DNA of 64,000 bases from a virus. The stretch spans positions 1 to 64,000 of the IMG/VR virus record IMGVR_UViG_3300024265_000045; one strand, written 5' to 3'. Of this stretch, positions 4,456 to 59,417 are shown in pieces. The translations under genes were made by a program, and so were the position numbers. The notes below the pieces were generated by a model, which saw only the letters and a list, made by a program, of their open reading frames with translations, made no database searches and was not told the origin of the DNA. Numbering within the stretch: the stretch's first letter is position 1; every line of letters begins with the position of its first letter.

Positions 4456-4801
4456 ATTCGATCTCCTTTACATCTTGTCCTGTCCAATTTCCTAATTCCA
4501 TCATTGCCAATGCAATCATGGAATATATTCCTATGTCCCTAAATATATTGTCAAGAGCATCTGTAGATTTTATACGCTCTTCAGGCGTAGCATTCAGTAC
4601 ATGTGTTCTCAATCTAGCAATTGCTCCTATCAATTCTACACTAGCTCCTAACACTCCAGTTTCAAGAATAGCATCACCGTGTTCTCTATTCTTTCGAACA
4701 AAAAGATTGGTCATTTCAAAAGCATTAGTGCAAATCTGATGTTCACGATCCTCTAATCTTTGCTCTAGCTTCATGTTGTTTGATTGTTGTTCTGACTCCA
4801 T
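4418..4801 (-). CDS. DUF1599/Nmad1-like nucleotide-associated protein
   Basis: A 127-residue, mostly helical protein. The core KNREHGDAILETGVLGAS...IGAIARLRTHV resembles the 'nucleotide modification associated domain 1' (DUF1599) family, a helical family often found beside nucleotide or base-modification genes in phages. A GGAGG lies nine bases before the ATG. It overlaps thyX downstream and the MazG-HAD gene upstream, so it is co-translated with both. The biochemical role of the family is not firmly established. Assignment rests on motif recall, not a search. Confidence 0.65.
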   Translation of the reverse strand: MESEQQSNNMKLEQRLEDREHQICTNAFEMTNLFVRKNREHGDAILETGVLGASVELIGAIARLRTHVLNATPEERIKSTDALDNIFRDIGIYSMIALAMMELGNWTGQDVKEIEYGEQCCTSDSKD

Positions 4802-5711
4802 ATTTGGGATCCTCCATAAAATTATCTACAAAAGCTACGTTATTTAATTCTCCCTCCAAAAATTCGTTATACGGAAATCTACGAGCAATAACTGGAATTC
4901 CTGAAGTTGCTGCTCGCATAATCCATACTGGATCATCATCTAAAATAATAACTTTATTGTTGACTGCAAGTTCATCAGCTAACAATATTCTCTTATCTTT
5001 AACAAACAAGAGATATTCAGGATTTAATCCGTGTAAAGACAGCCATGAATATGTGTCAAACCATACACTTTGAATTTCAGGAAATGGTCTAGCTGTAACG
5101 AATATGACTTTGAATCCTATAGATTGTAATTTTTTCACATATTGCGTAGCGTCTTTATATTCCTGAGCAAATACGTACATTCCAGCTTCTTCCAATCCTC
5201 GTTTCATTACTGCATAGTCAGGATATCTCATAGACAATACTTGATCCATCAGTAATGTTGATTGAGGTATGTCTGAAGTATCTTGGTCAGCCCACTCAAT
5301 AATTGTGTCATGTAAATTTACCAAAATTCCATCTAAATCAACAATTAAAATTTGCTCATTTGTAAGAAGTATATTTTCCTGAGTTAACATATGTTCAAGA
5401 AATTTGCTTTTTCTATCAACATATATTTGAATTTGCTCTGCCGAAAATCCCCAGATTTCCCATAGAGATAAAACATATTTAGTAAGATCAGCTAGTTGAT
5501 GTCCTATATTAGTTTCAATAAATTTAATGTCTTGCTTACGATGTCTTTTCCAATGAATAGCATCTAAAACATCATCTATTTCTGAAATCAAACCAAGTAA
5601 ATAAGTAGATGTCCATTCTTCTTTCGACAAAGGATTTGCCGCTCGTATTACGTTGTTATATTTTGACTGCTGTTCTAGCATAAGTTTCAAAATATTTTTA
5701 TCATTGCCCAT
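4743..5711 (-). CDS. dUTPase/MazG-like pyrophosphatase fused to HAD phosphatase
   Basis: Two-domain protein of 322 aa. Residues 1-115 look like an all-alpha NTP pyrophosphatase: LGLISEIDDVLDAIHWKRH (39-57, E44 and D47 as possible metal ligands) and HQLADLTKYV (71-80). Residues 120-300 are a HAD hydrolase: VDLDGILV (D125, D127), VIFVTARP near 200, and ILDDDP near 253. Known relatives hydrolyse dUTP or odd dNTPs and remove 5'(3') phosphates from nucleotides. Joining both steps would turn a dNTP into a nucleoside in one protein. Neighbours (ThyX, Nmad1-like) support nucleotide-pool control. Substrates are unknown. Confidence 0.78.
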   Translation of the reverse strand: MGNDKNILKLMLEQQSKYNNVIRAANPLSKEEWTSTYLLGLISEIDDVLDAIHWKRHRKQDIKFIETNIGHQLADLTKYVLSLWEIWGFSAEQIQIYVDRKSKFLEHMLTQENILLTNEQILIVDLDGILVNLHDTIIEWADQDTSDIPQSTLLMDQVLSMRYPDYAVMKRGLEEAGMYVFAQEYKDATQYVKKLQSIGFKVIFVTARPFPEIQSVWFDTYSWLSLHGLNPEYLLFVKDKRILLADELAVNNKVIILDDDPVWIMRAATSGIPVIARRFPYNEFLEGELNNVAFVDNFMEDPKYGVRTTIKQHEARAKIRGS

Positions 5712-6457: not shown

Positions 6458-6859
6458 TTATCCTCCGGATTGAAATATTATGTTTGGATCAATGTTACGA
6501 GTAATAAGAAAATGATAGCGTAAAAGATTTAAAGCATCTGATTCATGTTGACTAATATTTTTATATTTCCATTTTCGAGCTTTCGCTATGGGTTTCCAAT
6601 GTCCTGGAAGTATACGAATAAATTTCTTAGTGCCGAATATTTGATCTAAATAACTATATATGGGACTGGTTCTCAAGGGAAATTTTTCTATGATAACTTT
6701 GTCAAACATACTGTCTATCAATGAAAAAATTTGAGGTTCATCCTGACATAATTTGAGAAATATTTCAGAATTATACGAAAATACATCCAAGGAAGTATTC
6801 GTAACAGTAGCGATAGCAACTCCTGTCGTGCGTCCGGGATCAAGACCTAGCCAGAACAT
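6458..6859 (-). CDS. RuvC-like Holliday-junction nuclease
   Basis: RNase H-fold resolvase type protein, 133 aa. GLDPGRTTGVAIA at residues 5-17 gives the first catalytic Asp. VIIEKFPL near 55-62 gives the central Glu. HESDALNLLRYH near 105 gives the C-terminal acidic pair. This pattern is common in small phage RuvC-like proteins that process branched DNA during replication and packaging. It is the last gene before the strand's terminator region on its right side, and ends one base before the flavoprotein gene. Confidence 0.82.
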   Translation of the reverse strand: MFWLGLDPGRTTGVAIATVTNTSLDVFSYNSEIFLKLCQDEPQIFSLIDSMFDKVIIEKFPLRTSPIYSYLDQIFGTKKFIRILPGHWKPIAKARKWKYKNISQHESDALNLLRYHFLITRNIDPNIIFQSGG

Positions 6860-6860
6860 A

Positions 6861-6903
6861 ATAAAAAAAACGGCGGGGGAGTACTCCTCGTCCTCCCCCC
6901 GCC
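6861..6903 (-). terminator. Rho-independent terminator downstream of the SSB gene
   Basis: Read on the minus strand, a GC-rich stem (GGCGGGGGGAGG paired with CTCCCCCGCC) is followed by G and then a run of eight T. It lies between the SSB-like gene and the RuvC-like gene. This is a textbook intrinsic terminator and should reduce read-through from the SSB/Sak4 genes into the ThyX-polymerase genes. The start codon of the RuvC-like gene is at its very end. Confidence 0.85.
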
Positions 6904-6925
6904 TTACACCAGAAAATAGCTGGAA

Positions 6926-7396
6926 CTACTTCAAAACGTCCGTAGGTATGCCTTCAGGCATCTTAACTTCTGGAACGTTGCTGTCAGATCCAGACATTGT
7001 ATGACTGGACTTGGCTGTCACAACTGGAGAAGTTTTCGCTGCTTTGTCGCTTCGAGCAAATACCTGAACACATTTCTGTCTCATTGTTCCCTGATATTCT
7101 TCATTGGCAATCTTACCACGAATAACCTTGCCAACAAAATCGTGATGATCCATCTCACCGGTTTCCGGAACTCCGCAAGCATTGAAAAATTCTTCGGTTT
7201 TCCAACGAGCATTCGGGGACAAAGATACCATCAGAAGAGTGGTAGCACCCTTCTCCGGAGTATTATCCTGGCAAGTGAGTTGGAACATCCAATACGGAAA
7301 TTCCCCAGTCTGCCGTTCTTCACTTTTGGTGATCTTGAAGAGATGTATCCCTTCAGAGAGCTCAACAATTTCACGCTTCAAATTTACTTTTGTCAT
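6926..7396 (-). CDS. Single-stranded DNA-binding protein-like (DUF669-type)
   Basis: A 156-aa protein whose first 115 residues look like a beta-barrel: GIHLFKITKSEE, YWMFQLTC, FVGKVIRGKIANEEYQG. This resembles the DUF669 type of phage single-strand-binding proteins that accompany Sak4 recombinases. The C-terminal 40 residues are Ser/Lys/Pro-rich and disordered looking. AAGGAG lies upstream of the ATG. It is next to the Sak4-like gene and ends at a strong terminator, as expected for an abundant protein. Confidence 0.75.
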   Translation of the reverse strand: MTKVNLKREIVELSEGIHLFKITKSEERQTGEFPYWMFQLTCQDNTPEKGATTLLMVSLSPNARWKTEEFFNACGVPETGEMDHHDFVGKVIRGKIANEEYQGTMRQKCVQVFARSDKAAKTSPVVTAKSSHTMSGSDSNVPEVKMPEGIPTDVLK

Positions 7397-7432
7397 ATTT
7401 AATTACTCCTTAATTGTGAACTAAAAAATTGA

Positions 7433-39024: not shown

Positions 39025-39690
39025 GTGACCACAAGTAAAAGTAAGACAGCAACAAGGCTTGAGAAAGCCACAGCAGAGGTACAGGGAATTAAGTATGTTG
39101 CAATCAAAGAGTATGCAAGTGTACTAACACCTGAACAGCTTGTACAGGTAGACACCATTAAAGCAATGGGTAACGTTCCCAGTGTTGTCAAGTGTATAAG
39201 GTGTGGTAAGTTCACTGTACGTGACAGCGCACGGGCACGCTTGACCGGTGATCTGTGCCATGCACATCTGCTGAAAGGCAGGGGTAAAGACGCAACCGCC
39301 GCACACAAGGCGGAGATGACAAGGGAACGTGTAGCAGACAGTGTGCTGATACCCACAATGCATAATGTATGCTTGCGACTACAAATACCAGTAGGCGCAA
39401 TGGTGCGTGCTACTGGTGGGGATGGTTTATTCGACCCTCCTGCAACTAGCAAGTTGCAAACGTATTTCGGAACAAAGCCAAAAACCCGCCATGTTGTAAA
39501 CGGGAAATTTGCTACCAGTGCGCAGGGCTTGTTAGCTATAAGCCAATGTGCAAAGCGCACAATAACCCGCTCCCCAAGTGTGCAAAAAGATTGGGACAAC
39601 GTGCAGACAGGCAAGGCTGTAGTCAAGATAGCAGGGGAAGGGCGCAAGGCTGTAATCACAGTAGTACCAGTGAAAGCTAATGCCAAGTAA
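39025..39690 (+). CDS. DUF6011-like zinc-binding protein
   Basis: 221 aa. A zinc knuckle CIRCGKF...GDLCHAH at about 57-82, then IPVGAMVRATGGD near 122, FDPPA, and a basic C-terminal part. The protein at 58365-58868 shares both parts in the same order (CKICGKP...GPLCRSR, IPVSRLVRAFGGD, KPP), so the two are paralogues. The knuckle resembles DUF6011. First gene of the plus-strand region. Possible DNA-binding regulator, but this is inference. Confidence 0.75.
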   Translation: MTTSKSKTATRLEKATAEVQGIKYVAIKEYASVLTPEQLVQVDTIKAMGNVPSVVKCIRCGKFTVRDSARARLTGDLCHAHLLKGRGKDATAAHKAEMTRERVADSVLIPTMHNVCLRLQIPVGAMVRATGGDGLFDPPATSKLQTYFGTKPKTRHVVNGKFATSAQGLLAISQCAKRTITRSPSVQKDWDNVQTGKAVVKIAGEGRKAVITVVPVKANAK

Positions 39691-40032: not shown

Positions 40033-40096
40033 ATCTCGCCAACAAGTCGTGTTTCAACCTTCCATCTCGCAGCCAACAAATCGCCAAATAAATACT

Positions 40097-40347
40097 CTCG
40101 CGTATGATTTGTCGTTTCAAAATAAATAAACTCGCGTACGATTAACTAAATAACTCGCGTACGATCTACCCATCTCAAAATAAATCTCCGCGTACGACTA
40201 ATAAAAATTCTCGCGTACGACTTATCATTTTAAAATAAATAAGTTCATGTACGATTTATTATTTTAAAATAAATAAGTTCATGTATGACTAATAAAAATT
40301 CTCGCGTATGATTAGGCATATCATTTAAGAAATCCTTGCGTATCATC
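40097..40347 (+). repeat. Iteron array 1 (nine CTCGCGTACGATT-like copies)
   Basis: Nine copies with the core CGYRTAYGAYT start near 40097, 40131, 40154, 40185, 40210, 40244, 40278, 40301 and 40334. Spacings are mostly 23 or 34 bp, near multiples of one helical turn. AT-rich AAAATAAATAA spacers lie between. The array ends just before the TTTAC promoter at 40354. Looks like iterons for a DNA-binding regulator or replication initiator. Confidence 0.85.
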
Positions 40348-40353
40348 AAAACG

Positions 40354-40397
40354 TTTACGTAGGATTTATTACCCCAGGACTTAGTTTGGGGTATACT
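40354..40397 (+). promoter_or_regulatory. TTTAC-pair promoter 1
   Basis: TTTACGTAGGATTTAT (boxes 11 bp apart) followed after 32 bp by TATACT at 40392-40397. The same 16-mer occurs at 41277 and 44631. The leader contains a small hairpin (GGG...CCC) followed by GAAAGG before the ATG at 40456. Confidence 0.78.
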
Positions 40398-40455
40398 ATA
40401 GTTAGGAAATAAATTAGTTTTATGAAATGGGTAAAATGCCCGAAAGGTAAAAATT

Positions 40456-40716
40456 ATGGAAACACTTTATGTAGCAAGTCCTAGTAAATGGGTTGCCGAA
40501 ATTACGGCGGTTACAAAACGCGAACTTGTAAACCACTACGGCGAAAACCCTGCCACCCTAAACAACGCCGAAGTTGCCTTATGCTTATACGACAACCCCA
40601 ACCACAATTGGGACACGGTACTAGGCTTTATCCAAGAAGACCCTGCCAAATACAAAGTTTTCACAATTGGTTTTCTCGGGTTAGTATGGTTGTCATTTAT
40701 GGCAGCTTGGTCGTAA
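40456..40716 (+). CDS. Small protein with C-terminal membrane segment (86 aa)
   Basis: Soluble acidic N-terminal part (SPSKWVAEITAVTKREL...) and a hydrophobic C-terminus (FTIGFLGLVWLSFMAAW) that should anchor it in the membrane. Start follows CGAAAGG. First gene of the promoter 1 operon. Candidate host-membrane-directed early protein; function unknown. Confidence 0.7.
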   Translation: METLYVASPSKWVAEITAVTKRELVNHYGENPATLNNAEVALCLYDNPNHNWDTVLGFIQEDPAKYKVFTIGFLGLVWLSFMAAWS

Positions 40717-40727
40717 AACCAACCAAC

Positions 40728-40756
40728 GGCAGGGTTTACGAAATGTAAGCCCTGCC
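40728..40756 (+). other. Intercistronic hairpin
   Basis: GGCAGGGTTTAC pairs with GTAAGCCCTGCC (12 bp, one G-U) around five bases. It lies between the 86-aa and 23-aa genes and is followed by CAATAATTTC, not a T-run. Similar in position to the five conserved RNA elements further right, but without their sequence. Confidence 0.6.
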
Positions 40757-40782
40757 CAATAATTTCTTAGAGGAGATGCAAA

Positions 40783-40854
40783 ATGCAAGCTGAAATGGCT
40801 TTTCTCGTAAGTGTAGTGTATATTTCATATATGCTGCTACAATTCATAGGGTAA
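40783..40854 (+). CDS. 23-residue membrane microprotein
   Basis: AGAGGAG seven bases before ATG, then MQAEMAFLVSVVYISYMLLQ, nearly all one transmembrane helix. Its good ribosome binding site and place between two other small genes support it. Could be a phage membrane effector. Confidence 0.55.
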   Translation: MQAEMAFLVSVVYISYMLLQFIG

Positions 40855-40857
40855 ATC

Positions 40858-40983
40858 ATGATTGAAATACACATAAATGGTATCACGTTTTGGTTCAACA
40901 ATGAAAATTGGCTACCAGTATCGTTTATACGTATCTGGTTAAACAGGGCTGACGACACCCCACAATTTCCTCCACGAAACTAA
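40858..40983 (+). CDS. Hypothetical microprotein (41 aa)
   Basis: Starts three bases after the previous stop and runs to TAA just before the terminator. Contains IEIHINGITFWFNNENW, a beta-hairpin-like aromatic segment. No own ribosome binding site, so coupled to the gene before. Confidence 0.5.
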   Translation: MIEIHINGITFWFNNENWLPVSFIRIWLNRADDTPQFPPRN

Positions 40984-40994
40984 GCCCCAATCTC

Positions 40995-41031
40995 AGGCAA
41001 GCCACTCAGGAAATGGCTTGCCTCTCTTTTT
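40995..41031 (+). terminator. Rho-independent terminator of the promoter 1 operon
   Basis: Perfect 10-bp stem AGGCAAGCCA/TGGCTTGCCT with a 9-nt loop, followed by CTCTTTTTG. Located 11 bases after the 41-aa gene. Confidence 0.88.
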
Positions 41032-41084
41032 GCCTACCAGTTTCGTGAATGACCACTGAGGGTAATTCATGAATGACTAAATTC

Positions 41085-41267
41085 CTCACGTACGATTTTC
41101 CAAATCTACTTTGAAATAAATTCTCACGTATGATCAACAATTCACGTACGATCAAACATTCGTGTACGATTAAAAGTTCACGTACGACTGAAAATTTTAC
41201 AAAAAAAATCTTCGCGTATGACTGGCATTCATATATGATTAGGAACTCATATACGAGCGTACGACTC
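41085..41267 (+). repeat. Iteron array 2 (about nine copies)
   Basis: Copies of YTCRCGTAYGAYT start near 41085, 41123, 41141, 41159, 41177, 41211, 41228, 41246 and 41254. Here the usual step is 17-18 bp. Two weaker relatives (TTCGTGAATGACC and TTCATGAATGACT) occur near 41042 and 41066. Ends just before the TTTAC promoter at 41277. No gene in 40984-41377. Confidence 0.83.
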
Positions 41268-41276
41268 GTCCAGGCT

Positions 41277-41320
41277 TTTACGTAGGATTTATTACTACAG
41301 GACCCAATAGGGGCTATAAT
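41277..41320 (+). promoter_or_regulatory. TTTAC-pair promoter 2
   Basis: TTTACGTAGGATTTAT, then exactly 32 bp to a perfect TATAAT at 41315-41320. The leader has a GGGC/GCCC hairpin (41351-41364) followed by GAAAGG and the ATG at 41378. Confidence 0.8.
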
Positions 41321-41377
41321 ATAAATAAGACTAAATTTATTTTATGAGTTGGGCAAAAAAGCCCGAAAGGTAAAAAA

Positions 41378-41719
41378 ATGTATCACGAAGTACACGCATG
41401 TTTCAACAAAGGTAGCAAAATCGCGTTAGTACAAGTTATTCTCACAAATAACAAATACATTCGCGAACAGCAGTGGCATCTCGAGAAGCCCATTAAAATC
41501 ACAACAGAAATGGTAAAAGACGACCTGTACAATTGCGCAGGGTCGCACAGCTGGCAGGTCTTTGAAAAATTCATATATGACTTCACAGCCCCGTACCCTT
41601 TCAACAAGCCTTACGACCCCAAAAGCAAGTGGATCATAAAGCTACTTGGTATTTTCGGGCTATGGGTTTCAATTGTGTTGGTCACCGACGACGCCACACA
41701 GTACGAACCCATAAAGTAA
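41378..41719 (+). CDS. Hypothetical protein (113 aa)
   Basis: Basic/aromatic protein with VQVILTNNKYIREQQWHL and a hydrophobic stretch (IIKLLGIFGLWVSIVLV) near residues 86-102 that may be a membrane helix. GAAAGG upstream of ATG. First gene of the promoter 2 operon; followed immediately by RNA element copy 1. Confidence 0.65.
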   Translation: MYHEVHACFNKGSKIALVQVILTNNKYIREQQWHLEKPIKITTEMVKDDLYNCAGSHSWQVFEKFIYDFTAPYPFNKPYDPKSKWIIKLLGIFGLWVSIVLVTDDATQYEPIK

Positions 41720-41778
41720 GTCTTGGTAGGGGGTACAAGCCAATTTCGCGGAAGTTGGTTTGTAGGGTCTACCAAGAC
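41720..41778 (+). ncRNA. Intergenic structured RNA element, copy 1
   Basis: Outer stem GTCTTGGTAG/CTACCAAGAC (10 perfect pairs); GGGG linker; inner stem TACAAGCCAA/TTGGTTTGTA; apical TTC/GAA. The outer stem differs from copies 2-5 (GGTAG versus GAAAG) with matching change on the other side. Starts at the stop codon of the gene before. Confidence 0.8.
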
Positions 41779-41803
41779 CACAAAATCATAAAGGAGTTCA
41801 AAA

Positions 41804-42229
41804 ATGAACGGCAAGGTCATAAAAATACAGTTCGGTGATTGGCTCGAGGACGTGCTAAACAGCAATCTCGAAGCCAATTGTGTCAAGGTGGGGCATACGT
41901 CCCACACAGGCACAAACGAACTCTACGTTGAGTTTGGGTTAAGTGACCCTAACTACATGAAGTTTGTAGCAAAAGGTTCGTGGGACGAAATACGTGTACA
42001 GCTCGCAGAGGAATTCGGCTACGAATTCACTGGTGTTCAGGACTGGGTACTACCCAATCTTGAGGTTTACATTGAAACTGGCGTACAGGTAAACGTCACA
42101 GTAAACTGGCATGGTACGAAGCATGTACACCGTGGTCAGGAAACGTACAACTACGAGATCATGGTAAACGAAGGCTACGGGGTCCACTACTGTAACAAGC
42201 TCAACGACTGGGCAACAATTCGCAAATAA
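41804..42229 (+). CDS. Hypothetical protein (141 aa)
   Basis: Acidic protein with regular beta-strands (NELYVEFGLSDPNYMKFVA, VYIETGVQVNVTVNWHG). AAGGAG precedes ATG. No family recognised. It lies between RNA element copies 1 and 2. Confidence 0.7.
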   Translation: MNGKVIKIQFGDWLEDVLNSNLEANCVKVGHTSHTGTNELYVEFGLSDPNYMKFVAKGSWDEIRVQLAEEFGYEFTGVQDWVLPNLEVYIETGVQVNVTVNWHGTKHVHRGQETYNYEIMVNEGYGVHYCNKLNDWATIRK

Positions 42230-42230
42230 A

Positions 42231-42290
42231 GTCTTGAAAGGGGGTACAAGCCCAGGTCGTGAGAGCTGGTCTTGTGTAGCCTTTCAAGGC
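42231..42290 (+). ncRNA. Intergenic structured RNA element, copy 2
   Basis: Outer stem GTCTTGAAAG/CTTTCAAGGC; GGGG TACAAG; inner stem CCCAG/CTGG with a few mismatches; CTTGTGTAGC on the right. Begins right after the stop codon of the 141-aa gene. Confidence 0.8.
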
Positions 42291-42316
42291 TAAAATCAAA
42301 TATGAAGGAGTAAATC

Positions 42317-42523
42317 ATGTTAGCCCAACTCAAACGTGAAATTAAGTACGGGGTCGGTGCAAAAATTCGGTGCTGGCTGCTCAGTCATGACTGGCGTCTC
42401 GATGACTACTGGGACGAAGGCATGTTCAATCACATGTGCGCTCGCTGCGAAAAGTCAGCATACTTTGAATCGCAGCAAGACGACCCAGGTCCGGGATACA
42501 AACGCTGGTACGAAGGTATGTAA
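42317..42523 (+). CDS. DUF1660-like small zinc protein (68 aa)
   Basis: CWLLSHDWR near residue 19 and CARCEKS near 42 give the C...H...CxxC pattern of DUF1660-type small phage proteins. Similar to the 50-aa protein at 52830. GAAGGAG precedes ATG. Function unknown. Confidence 0.65.
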   Translation: MLAQLKREIKYGVGAKIRCWLLSHDWRLDDYWDEGMFNHMCARCEKSAYFESQQDDPGPGYKRWYEGM

Positions 42524-42524
42524 G

Positions 42525-42584
42525 GTCTTGAAGGGGGGTACAAGGTAATTTCATTGAAGTTATCTTGTATAGCCTTTCAAGGTT
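42525..42584 (+). ncRNA. Intergenic structured RNA element, copy 3
   Basis: Outer stem GTCTTGAAGG/CCTTTCAAGG; TACAAGGTAA/TTATCTTGTA inner stem; apical TTC/GAA. Starts at the stop of the previous gene and ends about 20 bases before the next ribosome binding site. Confidence 0.8.
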
Positions 42585-42607
42585 AAATAATCTAAAAGGA
42601 GATTATC

Positions 42608-42754
42608 ATGAAATGCCCACGTACAAAATTCTGTAACGGAAACGGCAAGCACATAACCACGCTCACAACTGATTACAACTTAGTGACAAAATTGTACAGG
42701 TGTGAGAACTGCAAGTTCCGCTTTGCCAAGTCCTCGTACCCCGAACGCTCGTAG
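42608..42754 (+). CDS. Small zinc-ribbon protein (48 aa)
   Basis: MKCPRTKFCNGNG ... YRCENCKFRFA: two Cys pairs about 26 residues apart. AAAGGAG precedes ATG. Last gene of the promoter 2 operon before promoter 3. Function unknown. Confidence 0.6.
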   Translation: MKCPRTKFCNGNGKHITTLTTDYNLVTKLYRCENCKFRFAKSSYPERS

Positions 42755-42774
42755 CACATGAGCTCGTACCCTTA

Positions 42775-42818
42775 TTAACTCACAGTTTATTGTGGTACGA
42801 ACCTATATGGGGTATACT
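42775..42818 (+). promoter_or_regulatory. TTTAC-pair promoter 3 (degenerate)
   Basis: TTAACT at 42775 and TTTATT 11 bp later, then 32 bp from the first box to TATACT at 42813-42818. The sequence from the -10 box onwards (TATACTATAGTTAGGAA) is nearly the same as in promoter 1. A GCCC/GGGC leader hairpin lies at 42849-42861. Confidence 0.65.
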
Positions 42819-42876
42819 ATAGTTAGGAAGTTAATTAGTTTAGGAAATGCCCAAAATGGGCGAAGGAGTAAACGAA

Positions 42877-43377
42877 ATGTCTAAGCAAGACCCCCTATAC
42901 ACTCTGGATATGGGTATGGCAAGTGATGCAACAGGCGATGCAATGCACCCTGTCATCTACCTGTACCCACACGAAGACCCCCACAGAATCCAAGTTGAAG
43001 CCAAGCTGTGGGAAGGCACAGGGCTATACCACCAAGACGAAAAGGTGTTCGCCCTACTGCTGGTAAGTCAAGAAAGGTTGGAGATCGCAAAGTTTGCTTG
43101 CCGTAATATTCTCCGTATAATACACTTCTATGCGGAAAATGGCGTATTCGTAGAACCCAAAAATTTCACAGCAATTGTGAACTTTGGTTCACGACAAGGG
43201 TACGAGGTCAACGATTTCGCGGATTTTGTACTCCTCACCATAATGCTTTTCACCCAACACCCCGACGCTTGCAAAGCTAATGTTCACGAGGCAGTTGGCA
43301 AGGCGACCTTATTATGGGAAACCCGCATATGCGATCCTTGTGCAAGTTTTGAGAAGTTAGGCACAGCGAGCTTCTAA
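42877..43377 (+). CDS. Hypothetical protein (166 aa)
   Basis: The frame opens earlier, but GAAGGAG eight bases before the ATG at 42877 sets this start. Mixed alpha/beta with VIYLYPHEDPHRIQVEAKLW and QERLEIAKFACRNILRIIHFY. No family recognised. Four late Cys residues are not arranged as a zinc site. Confidence 0.68.
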   Translation: MSKQDPLYTLDMGMASDATGDAMHPVIYLYPHEDPHRIQVEAKLWEGTGLYHQDEKVFALLLVSQERLEIAKFACRNILRIIHFYAENGVFVEPKNFTAIVNFGSRQGYEVNDFADFVLLTIMLFTQHPDACKANVHEAVGKATLLWETRICDPCASFEKLGTASF

Positions 43378-43436
43378 ATCTTGAAGGGGGGTACAAGGCA
43401 ATCTCGTAGAGGTTGTCTTGTATAGCCTTTCAAGGC
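43378..43436 (+). ncRNA. Intergenic structured RNA element, copy 4
   Basis: Outer stem CTTGAAGG/CCTTTCAAG; inner stem TACAAGGCAA/TTGTCTTGTA; apical CTC/GAG, replacing TTC/GAA of copies 1 and 3, a clear compensatory change. Confidence 0.8.
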
Positions 43437-43461
43437 TAAAACTAAAATAAGGAGAATTACA

Positions 43462-43932
43462 ATGTCAGAACAAGAAATACCCCCGTACCAAATCCCAGAC
43501 TACCTTGCCAAGTGGGTCGGAAATGACCCTGTCCATGAAATTGTTAGCGAAAAAGCAACTATGAAATACTATTGTGAAGACGGGCAAATTTTGGACGACT
43601 CAGGCTATCAGTCTGGTGGTCTCATAGTAGTACAGTTACCTAACCAGACTCCAGGTGGCTATTTCTACTGCCGGTATCCTGAAACAGCAGTTTCATGGAT
43701 GCTTACCCATAAGCTCGTGGATAACCACGACATTTGCTTTTACCACGCCGACGACCCGTATGATTTCAGCTTATTAGGCGACGACGGTATTAGTGGAAAA
43801 GCCTACATAGTCTTAAGCCACCTTCACGATGGGATTTCATCAATGTTGTGGCACGACCACTTACGGGAGGCACACCTAACTTCCGAACAGGCAAAGTTCA
43901 TTAGCGAGTGGGTAGGGTATCAATACGCATAA
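43462..43932 (+). CDS. Hypothetical protein (156 aa)
   Basis: Acidic protein rich in Tyr, His and Trp (GGYFYCRYPETAVSWML, LHDGISSMLWHDHLREAHL). AAGGAG precedes ATG. Unknown family. Flanked by RNA element copies 4 and 5. Confidence 0.68.
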   Translation: MSEQEIPPYQIPDYLAKWVGNDPVHEIVSEKATMKYYCEDGQILDDSGYQSGGLIVVQLPNQTPGGYFYCRYPETAVSWMLTHKLVDNHDICFYHADDPYDFSLLGDDGISGKAYIVLSHLHDGISSMLWHDHLREAHLTSEQAKFISEWVGYQYA

Positions 43933-43991
43933 GTCTTGAAAGGGGGTACAGGCAAAGATCACAGATCTTTTCCTGTATAGCCTTTCAAGGC
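43933..43991 (+). ncRNA. Intergenic structured RNA element, copy 5
   Basis: Outer stem GTCTTGAAAG/CTTTCAAGGC; inner stem TACAGGCAAAGATC/GATCTTTTCCTGTA, longer than in the other copies and with a different sequence but still paired. Followed by AAAGGAGG of the next gene. Confidence 0.8.
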
Positions 43992-44017
43992 AAAAACTAG
44001 AAAGGAGGTATCAAACA

Positions 44018-44233
44018 ATGGAATCGCAAAAACCCAAAGAAGTTACACTCGACGAAGCCCTGGCAAAAGCCGAGGCGAACCAGCCGGTATATCTCATTAA
44101 AAACCCGATGAAGATACGGCAAGAACCCACAGCAGATCTCGGTAGCCATGTCGAAAGCGAAGCTATCCAGAAAGCCAAAAAGAAGAAGCGCAAAGTCGCG
44201 AAGAAATCTCGTAAGAAGAATCGGCGTAAGTAA
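44018..44233 (+). CDS. Small protein with Lys-rich tail (71 aa)
   Basis: Helical N-terminal half (LDEALAKAEANQPVYLIKNP) and a C-terminal tail of almost only Lys and Arg (KKKKRKVAKKSRKKN). Strong AAAGGAGG upstream. The tail would bind DNA or RNA, or the ribosome. Unknown function. Confidence 0.68.
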   Translation: MESQKPKEVTLDEALAKAEANQPVYLIKNPMKIRQEPTADLGSHVESEAIQKAKKKKRKVAKKSRKKNRRK

Positions 44234-44251
44234 TCAACAACGGAGGATCAA

Positions 44252-44536
44252 ATGACAGCAATTTATAACATTCCGACACATGGCGGGGAAGGACACACAA
44301 CCTACGAAGAAAGCCCCATGTGTCAGACCTGCCTATTGAGTTTCGTAGGCGGAGACGAAGATAAGCTCGTAGCCTGGTGGGTTCGTGACACAAACGAGCC
44401 TTGCATAAATGAAGATAAACCTACTTGTAAGGACTATGATGCTGACCGCAGATTACGAGAAAGTGGGGCTTACACAATCAATAGAGGAGGTTGTCAAGTA
44501 CGCAAGAGACGTAAAGGTCCTCCCTGTAAGTTATAA
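44252..44536 (+). CDS. Cysteine-containing small protein (94 aa)
   Basis: CQTC at 24-27, later C51, C59 and two near the end, and a basic C-terminus (RKRRKGPPC). Zinc binding is plausible. CGGAGG precedes ATG. Last gene before iteron array 3. Confidence 0.6.
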   Translation: MTAIYNIPTHGGEGHTTYEESPMCQTCLLSFVGGDEDKLVAWWVRDTNEPCINEDKPTCKDYDADRRLRESGAYTINRGGCQVRKRRKGPPCKL

Positions 44537-45003: not shown

Positions 45004-45083
45004 TTTGAAAAGCATGGGGGGATTTAGCTGAAAGTCTATGAATAATCGTGGGCTTTTAACTAAATAACAAAAGGAGAAAATAA

Positions 45084-45233: not shown

Positions 45234-45495
45234 CGCCTTAAAATAGGTCCGTGAGCCGTTACTACTGTTTACTACTTTTTAAATACTGTGTTTTTAGGGT
45301 CAAGTTTATGATATACTACTATGATACTGCCCAGCCTAGTCAAGGGGTAAAAGCGATACGGCTTACGGTACTAGGTTATAGCGTCATGCAACCATGTAAA
45401 TGACGCCATAAAGTGGTCCTGTGCTCCCTATAAAACACAGTATTTAAAAACAGGTAAACACTACTAACGGCTCACGGACCTAGCTTATGGCGTCA
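45231..45495 (+). repeat. Nested inverted-repeat element with 69-nt arms
   Basis: Left arm 45231-45299 and right arm 45427-45495 are imperfect reverse complements (both begin TGACGCC when read inwards). The 127-nt centre holds a second, smaller inverted repeat (around 45370-45420, with GCGTCAT/ATGACGC) made of shorter copies of the arm ends. A TATACT box lies at 45312. It could be a folded RNA, a cruciform-forming DNA site, or a MITE-like insertion. Nothing else is seen in 45234-45626 except a short CCGC-TTCG-GCGG hairpin near 45560. Confidence 0.8.
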
Positions 45496-46550: not shown

Positions 46551-46581
46551 AATATACTCGTATCCCCAAAAGGAGAATATT

Positions 46582-46755
46582 ATGTCAGAACAGCTGATTC
46601 AGATTCAATTAGACATACTGGAGAAAGCTATCGAGGAAAAGCAGGAACGATTAGATGAAATAGATGTTGAGATGTGGGACATGCTCTTGGAAAAGACTAA
46701 GATTAAAAGTGATTTGATCACGCTTTGCCGTAAGCACGAAGAAATACGTAAGTAA
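46582..46755 (+). CDS. Coiled-coil microprotein, copy A (57 aa)
   Basis: AAAAGGAG sets the ATG at 46582. The protein is a paralogue of the one at 47003: both start MSEQ, share LEKAIE, then KSDL, TL, and end RKHEE. Helical throughout. Repeated gene of unknown role. Confidence 0.62.
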   Translation: MSEQLIQIQLDILEKAIEEKQERLDEIDVEMWDMLLEKTKIKSDLITLCRKHEEIRK

Positions 46756-46765
46756 GGAGTTTCAA

Positions 46766-46984
46766 ATGATAGTACATAGACTTTGGATAACAGATGTTAA
46801 GGTCAGACAAACCAAGCTCGGTAACAGGAAGAAGACTGAGTGGACTGGTTGGTTCTGTTTGGATTTATTCCTCTGTTCATTAAGACTATTAGCGTCGAGT
46901 ACAGGTACTTGTAGTTCGTATCGTTCCAAAATGAGATCCTTGCATAATGAATTGATCTATGGTATAATAGTAGTGGAAAAATAA
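46766..46984 (+). CDS. Hypothetical protein (72 aa), uncertain
   Basis: AAGGAG stands before ATG, but the last 20 codons run over a strong promoter (46940-46968). Residues 27-42 are hydrophobic (WFCLDLFLCSLRLLAS). May be a real gene with a promoter in its end, or a spurious frame. Confidence 0.4.
   Translation: MIVHRLWITDVKVRQTKLGNRKKTEWTGWFCLDLFLCSLRLLASSTGTCSSYRSKMRSLHNELIYGIIVVEK
46940..46968 (+). promoter_or_regulatory. Sigma70-type promoter A
   Basis: TTGCAT, 17 bp, TATAAT. Nearly the same block occurs at 47749. It lacks the TTTAC pair, so it belongs to another promoter class. Expected to drive the 47003 gene group. Confidence 0.75.
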
Positions 46985-47002
46985 AAAGTAAAGGAGAGTA
47001 AT

Positions 47003-47197
47003 ATGTCCGAACAAGATATACAAGTTCTGTTAGATGTACTTGAGAAAGCTATTGAAGACAAGCGGAAGCGTCTTTTACGAGTAAATCAACGTCTTTTCCA
47101 AATAGATCAAGAAGTGTTCGATCTACTGATTGAACAGACGACGTTGAAGAGCGATCTGACAACGCTCCGTCGCAAGCACGAGGAATTACGTAGATAA
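47003..47197 (+). CDS. Coiled-coil microprotein, copy B (64 aa)
   Basis: Paralogue of the 46582 gene with seven extra residues (KRLLRVNQRLF...) in the middle. AAAGGAGAG upstream. Ends RRKHEELRR. Confidence 0.65.
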   Translation: MSEQDIQVLLDVLEKAIEDKRKRLLRVNQRLFQIDQEVFDLLIEQTTLKSDLTTLRRKHEELRR

Positions 47198-47743: not shown

Positions 47744-47748
47744 AGCAC

Positions 47749-47777
47749 TTGCATAATGACTTGATCTATGGTATAAT
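47749..47777 (+). promoter_or_regulatory. Sigma70-type promoter B
   Basis: TTGCAT, 17 bp, TATAAT; from about 47747 to 47780 it differs from promoter A by few bases. Should drive the 47811 gene onwards. Confidence 0.75.
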
Positions 47778-47810
47778 AGTATTAGAAGAATAAAAGCAAA
47801 GGAGAACAAT

Positions 47811-57201: not shown

Positions 57202-57648
57202 ATGAAAAGAACAAAAGTAAAAATCATTTTATCTATACTCATAATATTGGTAGTATTGACAATGACGGCTTCAAGTTGTCAACCATCCTCAGATCAGATC
57301 GTTAATTGGGTAGCTCTTCACACCTGGTTTTTCATTGATAGTACCGAAACTGCCATCAATGGATTTGCTCTGCTTGGTCCGTATGGGATGTCGGCGCAGA
57401 TATCTGTCATCGGAGCTCAAGTTCATGTTAGTCTAACTCAAATGACTCCGGAACATATATTCGGGAATACCTTATGGTACACTCAGCAAGGGTGGGCTAG
57501 ATTTACGTATTGGGGTCTTCCGCTTGCCGTTCAGGAAGCTTTAATTACGGAGATTACATTTTCTATCCCTCTTTATGCTGAAGGAATTTGGTTCATTCCC
57601 TATTTTGAGGGAATGCTTGATTTTGGTCCGGTAGTAACTGACGTGTAA
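57202..57648 (+). CDS. Lipoprotein (148 aa)
   Basis: Basic start, hydrophobic core, TASSC lipobox near residue 26 (ILSILIILVVLTMTASSC). After processing it should be attached to the outer face of the membrane. Hydrophobic body with GYPGM-type turns. AAGGAG upstream. Phage lipoproteins often block superinfection; here that is inferred. Confidence 0.75.
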   Translation: MKRTKVKIILSILIILVVLTMTASSCQPSSDQIVNWVALHTWFFIDSTETAINGFALLGPYGMSAQISVIGAQVHVSLTQMTPEHIFGNTLWYTQQGWARFTYWGLPLAVQEALITEITFSIPLYAEGIWFIPYFEGMLDFGPVVTDV

Positions 57649-57657
57649 GTACCATTT

Positions 57658-57683
57658 GAGCTGCTAATTTCGGTTAGCAGTTC
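57658..57683 (+). other. Hairpin after the lipoprotein gene
   Basis: GAGCTGCTAA pairs with TTAGCAGTTC (one G-U) around a 6-nt loop, nine bases after the lipoprotein stop; no T-run. Possible weak terminator before promoter 6. Confidence 0.45.
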
Positions 57684-57691
57684 AGATGGAG

Positions 57692-57735
57692 TTTACACAA
57701 AGTTTATGTGTCCAAGACTAGATATTTGTTATAAT
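57692..57735 (+). promoter_or_regulatory. TTTAC-pair promoter 6
   Basis: TTTACA and TTTATG 11 bp apart, 32 bp from the first box to TATAAT (57730-57735). Confidence 0.75.
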
Positions 57736-58868: not shown

Positions 58869-58953
58869 GCTCATCTGATCCTCCGATAAAAGTGGGGGAG
58901 CTAGTTTGTGGTCATGCTGGCTTCCCCACTGATATAAAAACAAGGAGTTCAAA

Positions 58954-59187: not shown

Positions 59188-59417
59188 ATTGGCGAGAAAT
59201 TTCATTTGTGGATACAATTGGATTATTCCTTCAAATGGCTAGTTCGTACGAAGGTCCTCCTGATGGACTAGCTTTCAAAATAATCCATATGGGAATTATC
59301 CTAAAATTATCAAGCAGGATTTTTGTCAGATGTTTGCTAAAATCTCCGGAGCAGGTATTGCCTCCGGAGATTCTAGCAGACATTTGTCTGACTAATTCAA
59401 AAAGGAGAATCAAATGA
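59184..59417 (+). CDS. Hypothetical protein (77 aa)
   Basis: ATG at 59184 overlaps the previous TGA; the longer frame from 59127 has no better site. Helical with ILKLSSRIFVRCLLKSP. Unknown. Confidence 0.52.
   Translation: MNWREISFVDTIGLFLQMASSYEGPPDGLAFKIIHMGIILKLSSRIFVRCLLKSPEQVLPPEILADICLTNSKRRIK

Follow-up and report, generated by a model that had tools for sequence, protein, structure and literature searches.

Five stop-adjacent intercistronic RNA hairpins in two short phage operons as candidate RNase III processing sites

The window analysed here, a stretch of 64,000 nucleotides, belongs to a virus record whose full length is 72,576 bp. It holds two adjacent short operons, A and B, in which hairpins of about 60 nt lie between the genes (n = 5 in the phage record, all on the + strand). 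The genes, hairpins and promoter-like repeats of the two operons are as follows.

41266 to 41343, + strand: promoter-like repeat of family D4 before operon A
41378 to 41719, + strand: operon A gene 1, 113 aa, without family match, upstream of copy 1
41720 to 41778, + strand: copy 1 hairpin, fold z-score -8.9, recovered by the leave-one-out model
41804 to 42229, + strand: operon A gene 2 (141 aa), flanked by copies 1 and 2
42230 to 42291, + strand: copy 2 hairpin, terminal loop GUGA (4 nt), fold z-score -7.1
42317 to 42523, + strand: operon A gene 3, 68 aa, matching phrog_2670 weakly, flanked by copies 2 and 3
42524 to 42584, + strand: copy 3 hairpin, fold z-score -8.3
42608 to 42754, + strand: operon A gene 4, 48 aa, rich in cysteine, downstream of copy 3 and with no element behind it
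42764 to 42841, + strand: promoter-like repeat of family D4 before operon B
42877 to 43377, + strand: operon B gene 1, 166 aa, upstream of copy 4
43379 to 43435, + strand: copy 4 hairpin, fold z-score -7.3
43462 to 43932, + strand: operon B gene 2, 156 aa, relatives not found, between copies 4 and 5
43933 to 43991, + strand: copy 5 hairpin, fold z-score -7.3
44018 to 44233, + strand: operon B gene 3, 71 aa, with a very basic C-terminus, after copy 5

The D4 repeats, of which a third, sister copy lies at 40343-40420, are probably promoters, judging by their TATAAT/TATACT-like boxes, and both operons appear to be of early type, with a presumably early timing. For gene 1 of operon B, the Shine-Dalgarno (SD) sequence supports a start at 42877 rather than 42847, and a fourth gene of this operon starts at 44252, separated from gene 3 by an 18-nt junction without an element. 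The proteins flanking the hairpins are not related to one another, and database searches returned no relatives at all for nearly all of them. The GC content is about 0.46 at 42-44 kb versus 0.36-0.41 in most of the window, and the element-bearing block 41300-44500 may have been acquired as a unit. In the first-gene leaders that follow the three promoter-like repeats, small hairpins precede the SD (40430-40445, 41350-41366 and 42848-42861); GGGC..GCCC in one of them corresponds to GCCC..GGGC in another, the two arms being swapped yet still paired.

Each hairpin starts 1-2 nt past a TAA, in line with the stop-codon adjacency given in a preliminary description of this DNA, which had also placed the five copies correctly. 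The distance from the stop codon to the next ATG is nearly constant at 84, 87, 84, 84 and 85 nt, while elsewhere in the same gene arm many junctions are shorter than 25 nt or overlapping. On the 3' side of the hairpin, an A-rich stretch is followed by an AAGGAG ribosome-binding site, both lying outside the structure. Five of the six internal junctions of the two operons carry the element, comprising all three in operon A and the first two in operon B; neither operon has one after its final gene, and none is found at the remaining gene junctions of the arm. The earlier formulation that the element is used once per gene junction therefore applies to these five junctions and is too broad for the rest of the arm. 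Judging by known ribosome footprints, much of the outer stem should lie under the ribosome during termination, so that the complete hairpin is expected to form only between ribosomes.

The consensus structure consists of an outer stem of about 12 bp, a 3x3 internal loop, an inner stem of about 14 bp and a terminal loop of 3-4 nt, with 3 nt in the consensus and 4 nt (GUGA) in copy 2. The internal loop is purine-rich and near-symmetric, with GGG on the 5' side facing UAG on the 3' side, the latter being replaced by GGG in copy 1. The hairpin as first described thus holds, except that GGGGGTACA, originally listed as a part of its own between the two stems, resolves into two Gs of the outer stem, three Gs of the loop and the beginning of the inner stem. 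In a MAFFT alignment of the five copies, mean column identity is 82%; conserved sequence clusters at the internal loop and the outer stem, the GGGGGUACA core and most of the outer stem being almost invariant, while the apical stem varies yet stays paired. In copy 1 the outer stem, GUCUUGGUAG/CUACCAAGAC, is altered on both sides relative to the other copies, just as had been noticed before. Pair probabilities of the stems in context range from 0.97 to 1.00. For copy 4, one longer context favours a rival pairing by 2.5 kcal/mol in a single minimum-energy fold; in wider context the pair probability of the element is 0.99.

The compensatory changes proposed in the preliminary description proved to be real. 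The RNAalifold consensus contains 26 pairs, 8 of which have changed on both sides in one or more copies, and standard pairs occupy 124 of the 130 pair cells (95.4%), a value that refers to a small sample of five paralogous copies from one genome that are not phylogenetically independent. None of 500 shuffles matched the real alignment in pairing or in covariation score, and shifting the partners by 1-3 columns reduced pairing to 33-52%. The fold z-scores on the + strand range from -7.1 to -8.9, with none of 200 shuffles folding equally well, and a model built from copies 2-5 recovered the divergent copy 1 with 52.9 bits (rough E-value 1.6e-14). The non-Watson-Crick cells of the + strand comprise 16 G-U, 2 A-C and 4 others. 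Considering that selection purely for a DNA palindrome would be expected to leave G-T and A-C equally common, the excess of G-U is informative (one-sided binomial p = 0.0007), although this value is indicative, as the cells share ancestry. Folding of the - strand is weaker than that of the + strand by 6-15 kcal/mol, and the + strand is the mRNA strand for every flanking gene. The wobble asymmetry and the firmer + strand folding suggest that selection acts on the mRNA, not on the DNA.

Several readings were excluded by sequence tests. The elements are not intrinsic terminators, for which the preliminary description had rightly noted the lack of a T-run; no terminator-like site on the + strand overlaps any of them. 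Translation or stop-codon readthrough through the element was rejected, and the elements are considered non-coding, because the reading frames differ among copies and most soon run into a stop. Duplication of a gene together with its element was discarded as well, the adjacent proteins not being paralogous, and a sigma-70-type scan found no + strand promoter inside the elements.

No copies beyond the five loci were found in the whole 72,576-bp record, including by the leave-one-out model search. Among the covariance models of Rfam 15, none scored above its gathering threshold, the best chance match reaching 18 bits against a cut-off of 88 bits. Searches of the region and the element against phage and plasmid records with blastn returned short chance matches only, and pattern scans of IMG/VR and of GTDB genomes gave zero element matches; a pattern restricted to the outer stem matched five contigs whose interiors differ, and these were set aside as chance. 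Relatives of the operon genes were sought and none were found. Terminase relatives are mostly 38-57% identical and come from IMG/VR contigs and from genomes of Chloroflexota, Actinomycetota and Planctomycetota, the best matches among cultured phages being those infecting Streptomyces and Thermobifida. With the covariance model, nothing credible emerged from 16 related virus records or from 8 genomes with terminase relatives, a 21-bit match in the relative L105 being discarded as it falls within a coding gene. Two relatives of 70-75 kb have no counterpart hairpin family, and lone stable hairpins are common in them. Because the records and genomes searched lack the element, the family is known from this phage alone in these data.

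The surroundings of the operons contain further features. The interval 40086-41300, just upstream, is non-coding and densely filled with repeats of the CGTACGA/CGTATGA type, e.g. CTCGCGTACGATT, and the relatives L002 and L114 have non-coding regions with an analogous repeated CGATACCA motif. A cysteine-containing protein encoded at 39025-39690 resembles, by eye, several proteins of L002 (1709-2134 on the + strand, 4651-5022 and 6791-7405 on the - strand), forming a small family that recurs in these phages. At 45244-45484, two imperfectly inverted arms of about 48 bp, seen by eye (AGGTCCGTGAGCCGTTACTACTGTTTAC.../...GTAAACACTACTAACGGCTCACGGACCT), enclose around 150 bp in which no gene is obvious; the whole may be a large hairpin or a small mobile element. 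Tandem, related small genes with coiled-coil-like products lie at 46569-46649 and 46990-47070, and a promoter-like repeat (CTTGCATAATGAATTGATCTATGGTATAATAG) occurs at 46939-46986 and 47748-47795 with 92% identity. Five more very stable, mutually unrelated hairpins without a clear T-run are found at or near + strand junctions of the arm, with z-scores from -5.6 to -10.9 (57643-57698, 58890-58930, 59326-59390, 45020-45060 and 40727-40756); the one at 59326-59390 overlaps a possible short ORF.

The elements are intercistronic hairpins of two short operons that we consider most likely to be cut by host RNase III, a reading that we hold with about even confidence. The RNA duplex spans about two helical turns with an internal loop, the format of an RNase III site, and its intercistronic position in polycistronic operons of early type is that of the T7 sites. 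As the ribosome leaves the stop codon, the hairpin would fold into a nearly continuous helix of about 29 layers, broken by the 3x3 purine-rich loop, and RNase III, a double-strand-specific endonuclease, would cut in or near the internal loop. Such cleavage would divide the polycistronic transcript into mRNAs of one or two genes; the upstream fragments would acquire an exonuclease-resistant 3'-terminal stem-loop, which may affect mRNA stability, and the downstream fragments would begin shortly before the strong AAGGAG ribosome-binding site. The enzyme must be assumed to come from the host, since no RNase III gene was detectable in the phage with PF14622. The stop-anchored placement, the constant junction length, the covariation, the stability, the + strand specificity of the RNA and the parallel with T7 count in favour of processing, making an RNA processing site the best of the three options first put forward (processing site, translation insulator or regulator binding site). 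Several observations count against it. Most junctions of the same gene arm lack the element, the phage has no detectable RNase III gene of its own, and there is no sequence similarity to the T7 sites. RNase III, moreover, makes few demands on sequence, yet GGGGGUACA and most of the outer stem hardly vary. The near-invariance is explained equally well by recent duplication or by a sequence-specific binder. As a short and highly uniform module, the element is easily tested in a reporter and may be a useful part for splitting operons.

The great stability of the hairpins and their immediate adjacency to stop codons would also suit passive roadblocks, which, with no site-specific cut, would block 3'-5' exonucleases and insulate the next ribosome-binding site from terminating ribosomes; we regard this as possible but fairly unlikely. 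The unrelated stable hairpins at other junctions of the arm, among them 57643-57698, 58890-58930 and 45020-45060, fit such a structure-driven role, lending it weak support because hairpins of similar stability are also present in related phages. There they form no families, indicating that stability alone is not distinctive, and a passive barrier requires neither a conserved internal loop nor the GGGGGUACA core.

These conserved parts lead to readings in which the sequence itself is recognized. The unit of 84-87 nt from stop codon through hairpin to SD could be a dedicated junction module in which a specific protein of phage or host reads the GGG/UAG loop, thereby separating and co-regulating the genes of the two accessory operons post-transcriptionally; we think this unlikely. 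We give slightly less credence to a putative site at which an RNA-binding protein with sequence specificity, encoded by phage or host, would read the internal loop and its flanking pairs and control the operons together at the post-transcriptional level. Conservation is centred on the internal loop and the outer stem while the apical stem varies but remains paired, the elements are confined to two adjacent operons, and the near-invariant GGGGGUACA core, which RNase III does not need, keeps a binder under consideration; if a specific protein does read the internal loop, the pair would constitute a new RNA-protein recognition system and not a generic RNase III substrate. Set against this, the conservation could merely reflect recent duplication or spread of the module, family matches for the operon genes were uninformative, and no candidate binder was found. 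Nor does the structure cover the ribosome-binding sites, the stem pair probabilities being near 1 with the SD outside the hairpin.

It is very improbable that the elements are boundaries of gene cassettes, i.e. DNA repeats at which recombination swaps unrelated small genes as in PeSLs or attC sites: near-identical junction modules of constant length flanked by unrelated genes and a superficially attC-like layout of box, spacer, box and tip would fit, but the G-U/A-C asymmetry and strand bias indicate selection on RNA, the record contains no tyrosine recombinase, the elements lack the attC core motifs GTTRRRY/RYYYAAC except for one chance GTTRRRY, the sigma-70-type scan found in them no early promoter such as PeSLs contain, and the searches yielded no relative in which a gene swap could be observed.

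Integron attC sites consist of an outer box, an unpaired spacer, an inner box and a variable tip, and directly follow a promoterless small gene. The likeness of the present elements to this arrangement is superficial, and the strand preference is opposite, as attC uses the bottom strand, which folds worse here. The PeSL cassettes of T4-like phages, as far as they are described in PMC4503421, are repeated intergenic stem-loops with unrelated small genes, and a title cited there presents them as an early promoter combined with a terminator-type stem-loop. On this description, the elements share with PeSLs the repeated intergenic stem-loops beside unrelated small genes and differ in having neither a detected sigma-70-type promoter nor a terminator. 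The rpsO-pnp hairpin of S. coelicolor has a symmetric [4/4] loop that is cut on both sides (PMC10126417). Like the rpsO-pnp RNase III hairpin of Streptomyces and E. coli, the elements are intergenic, contain an internal loop and lie between two operon genes; the rpsO-pnp hairpin is a lone cellular site with an autoregulatory role, in contrast to the multi-copy phage family.

The closest counterpart is found in T7, whose early region was analysed in the same way by folding and aligning R0.3, R0.5, R1, R1.1 and R1.3, under their usual names and at their approximate locations. The T7 sites are related to each other in sequence, with a core of CTCAAGG ... CCTTTATGA; R0.5 starts a few nucleotides past a stop codon, and the gaps that hold R0.5, R1 and R1.3 measure 62-80 nt. 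In the T7 apical stem, 98% of cells are paired despite both-sided changes (covariation score 0.47), and minimum-energy folds show a weak lower stem. The two phages are thus alike in having about five hairpins between genes of an early or, here, presumably early region, in which the core is conserved and the apical stem changes while remaining paired. The elements described here differ in their longer and cleaner outer and inner stems, their symmetric 3x3 loop and their near-constant junction length, and their cleavage is predicted. Neither blastn in the phage collection nor the alignments, which share no core, revealed sequence homology to the T7 sites, such homology defining the T7 family proper and not RNase III substrates in general. 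The preliminary description had spoken of a new cis-acting RNA. A cis-acting structured RNA of gene junctions is borne out by the covariation, the + strand specificity, the stop anchoring and the constant junction length, and its sequence family is new and unusually uniform; a categorically new class of cis-RNA is not supported, as T7 RNase III sites already represent this kind. The element is real at the RNA level, intercistronic and present in five copies, and would in function be most like processing sites of the T7 type. If the elements are indeed processing sites, a phage distant from cultivated ones has reached the solution of T7, in which near-identical hairpins split the mRNA gene by gene.
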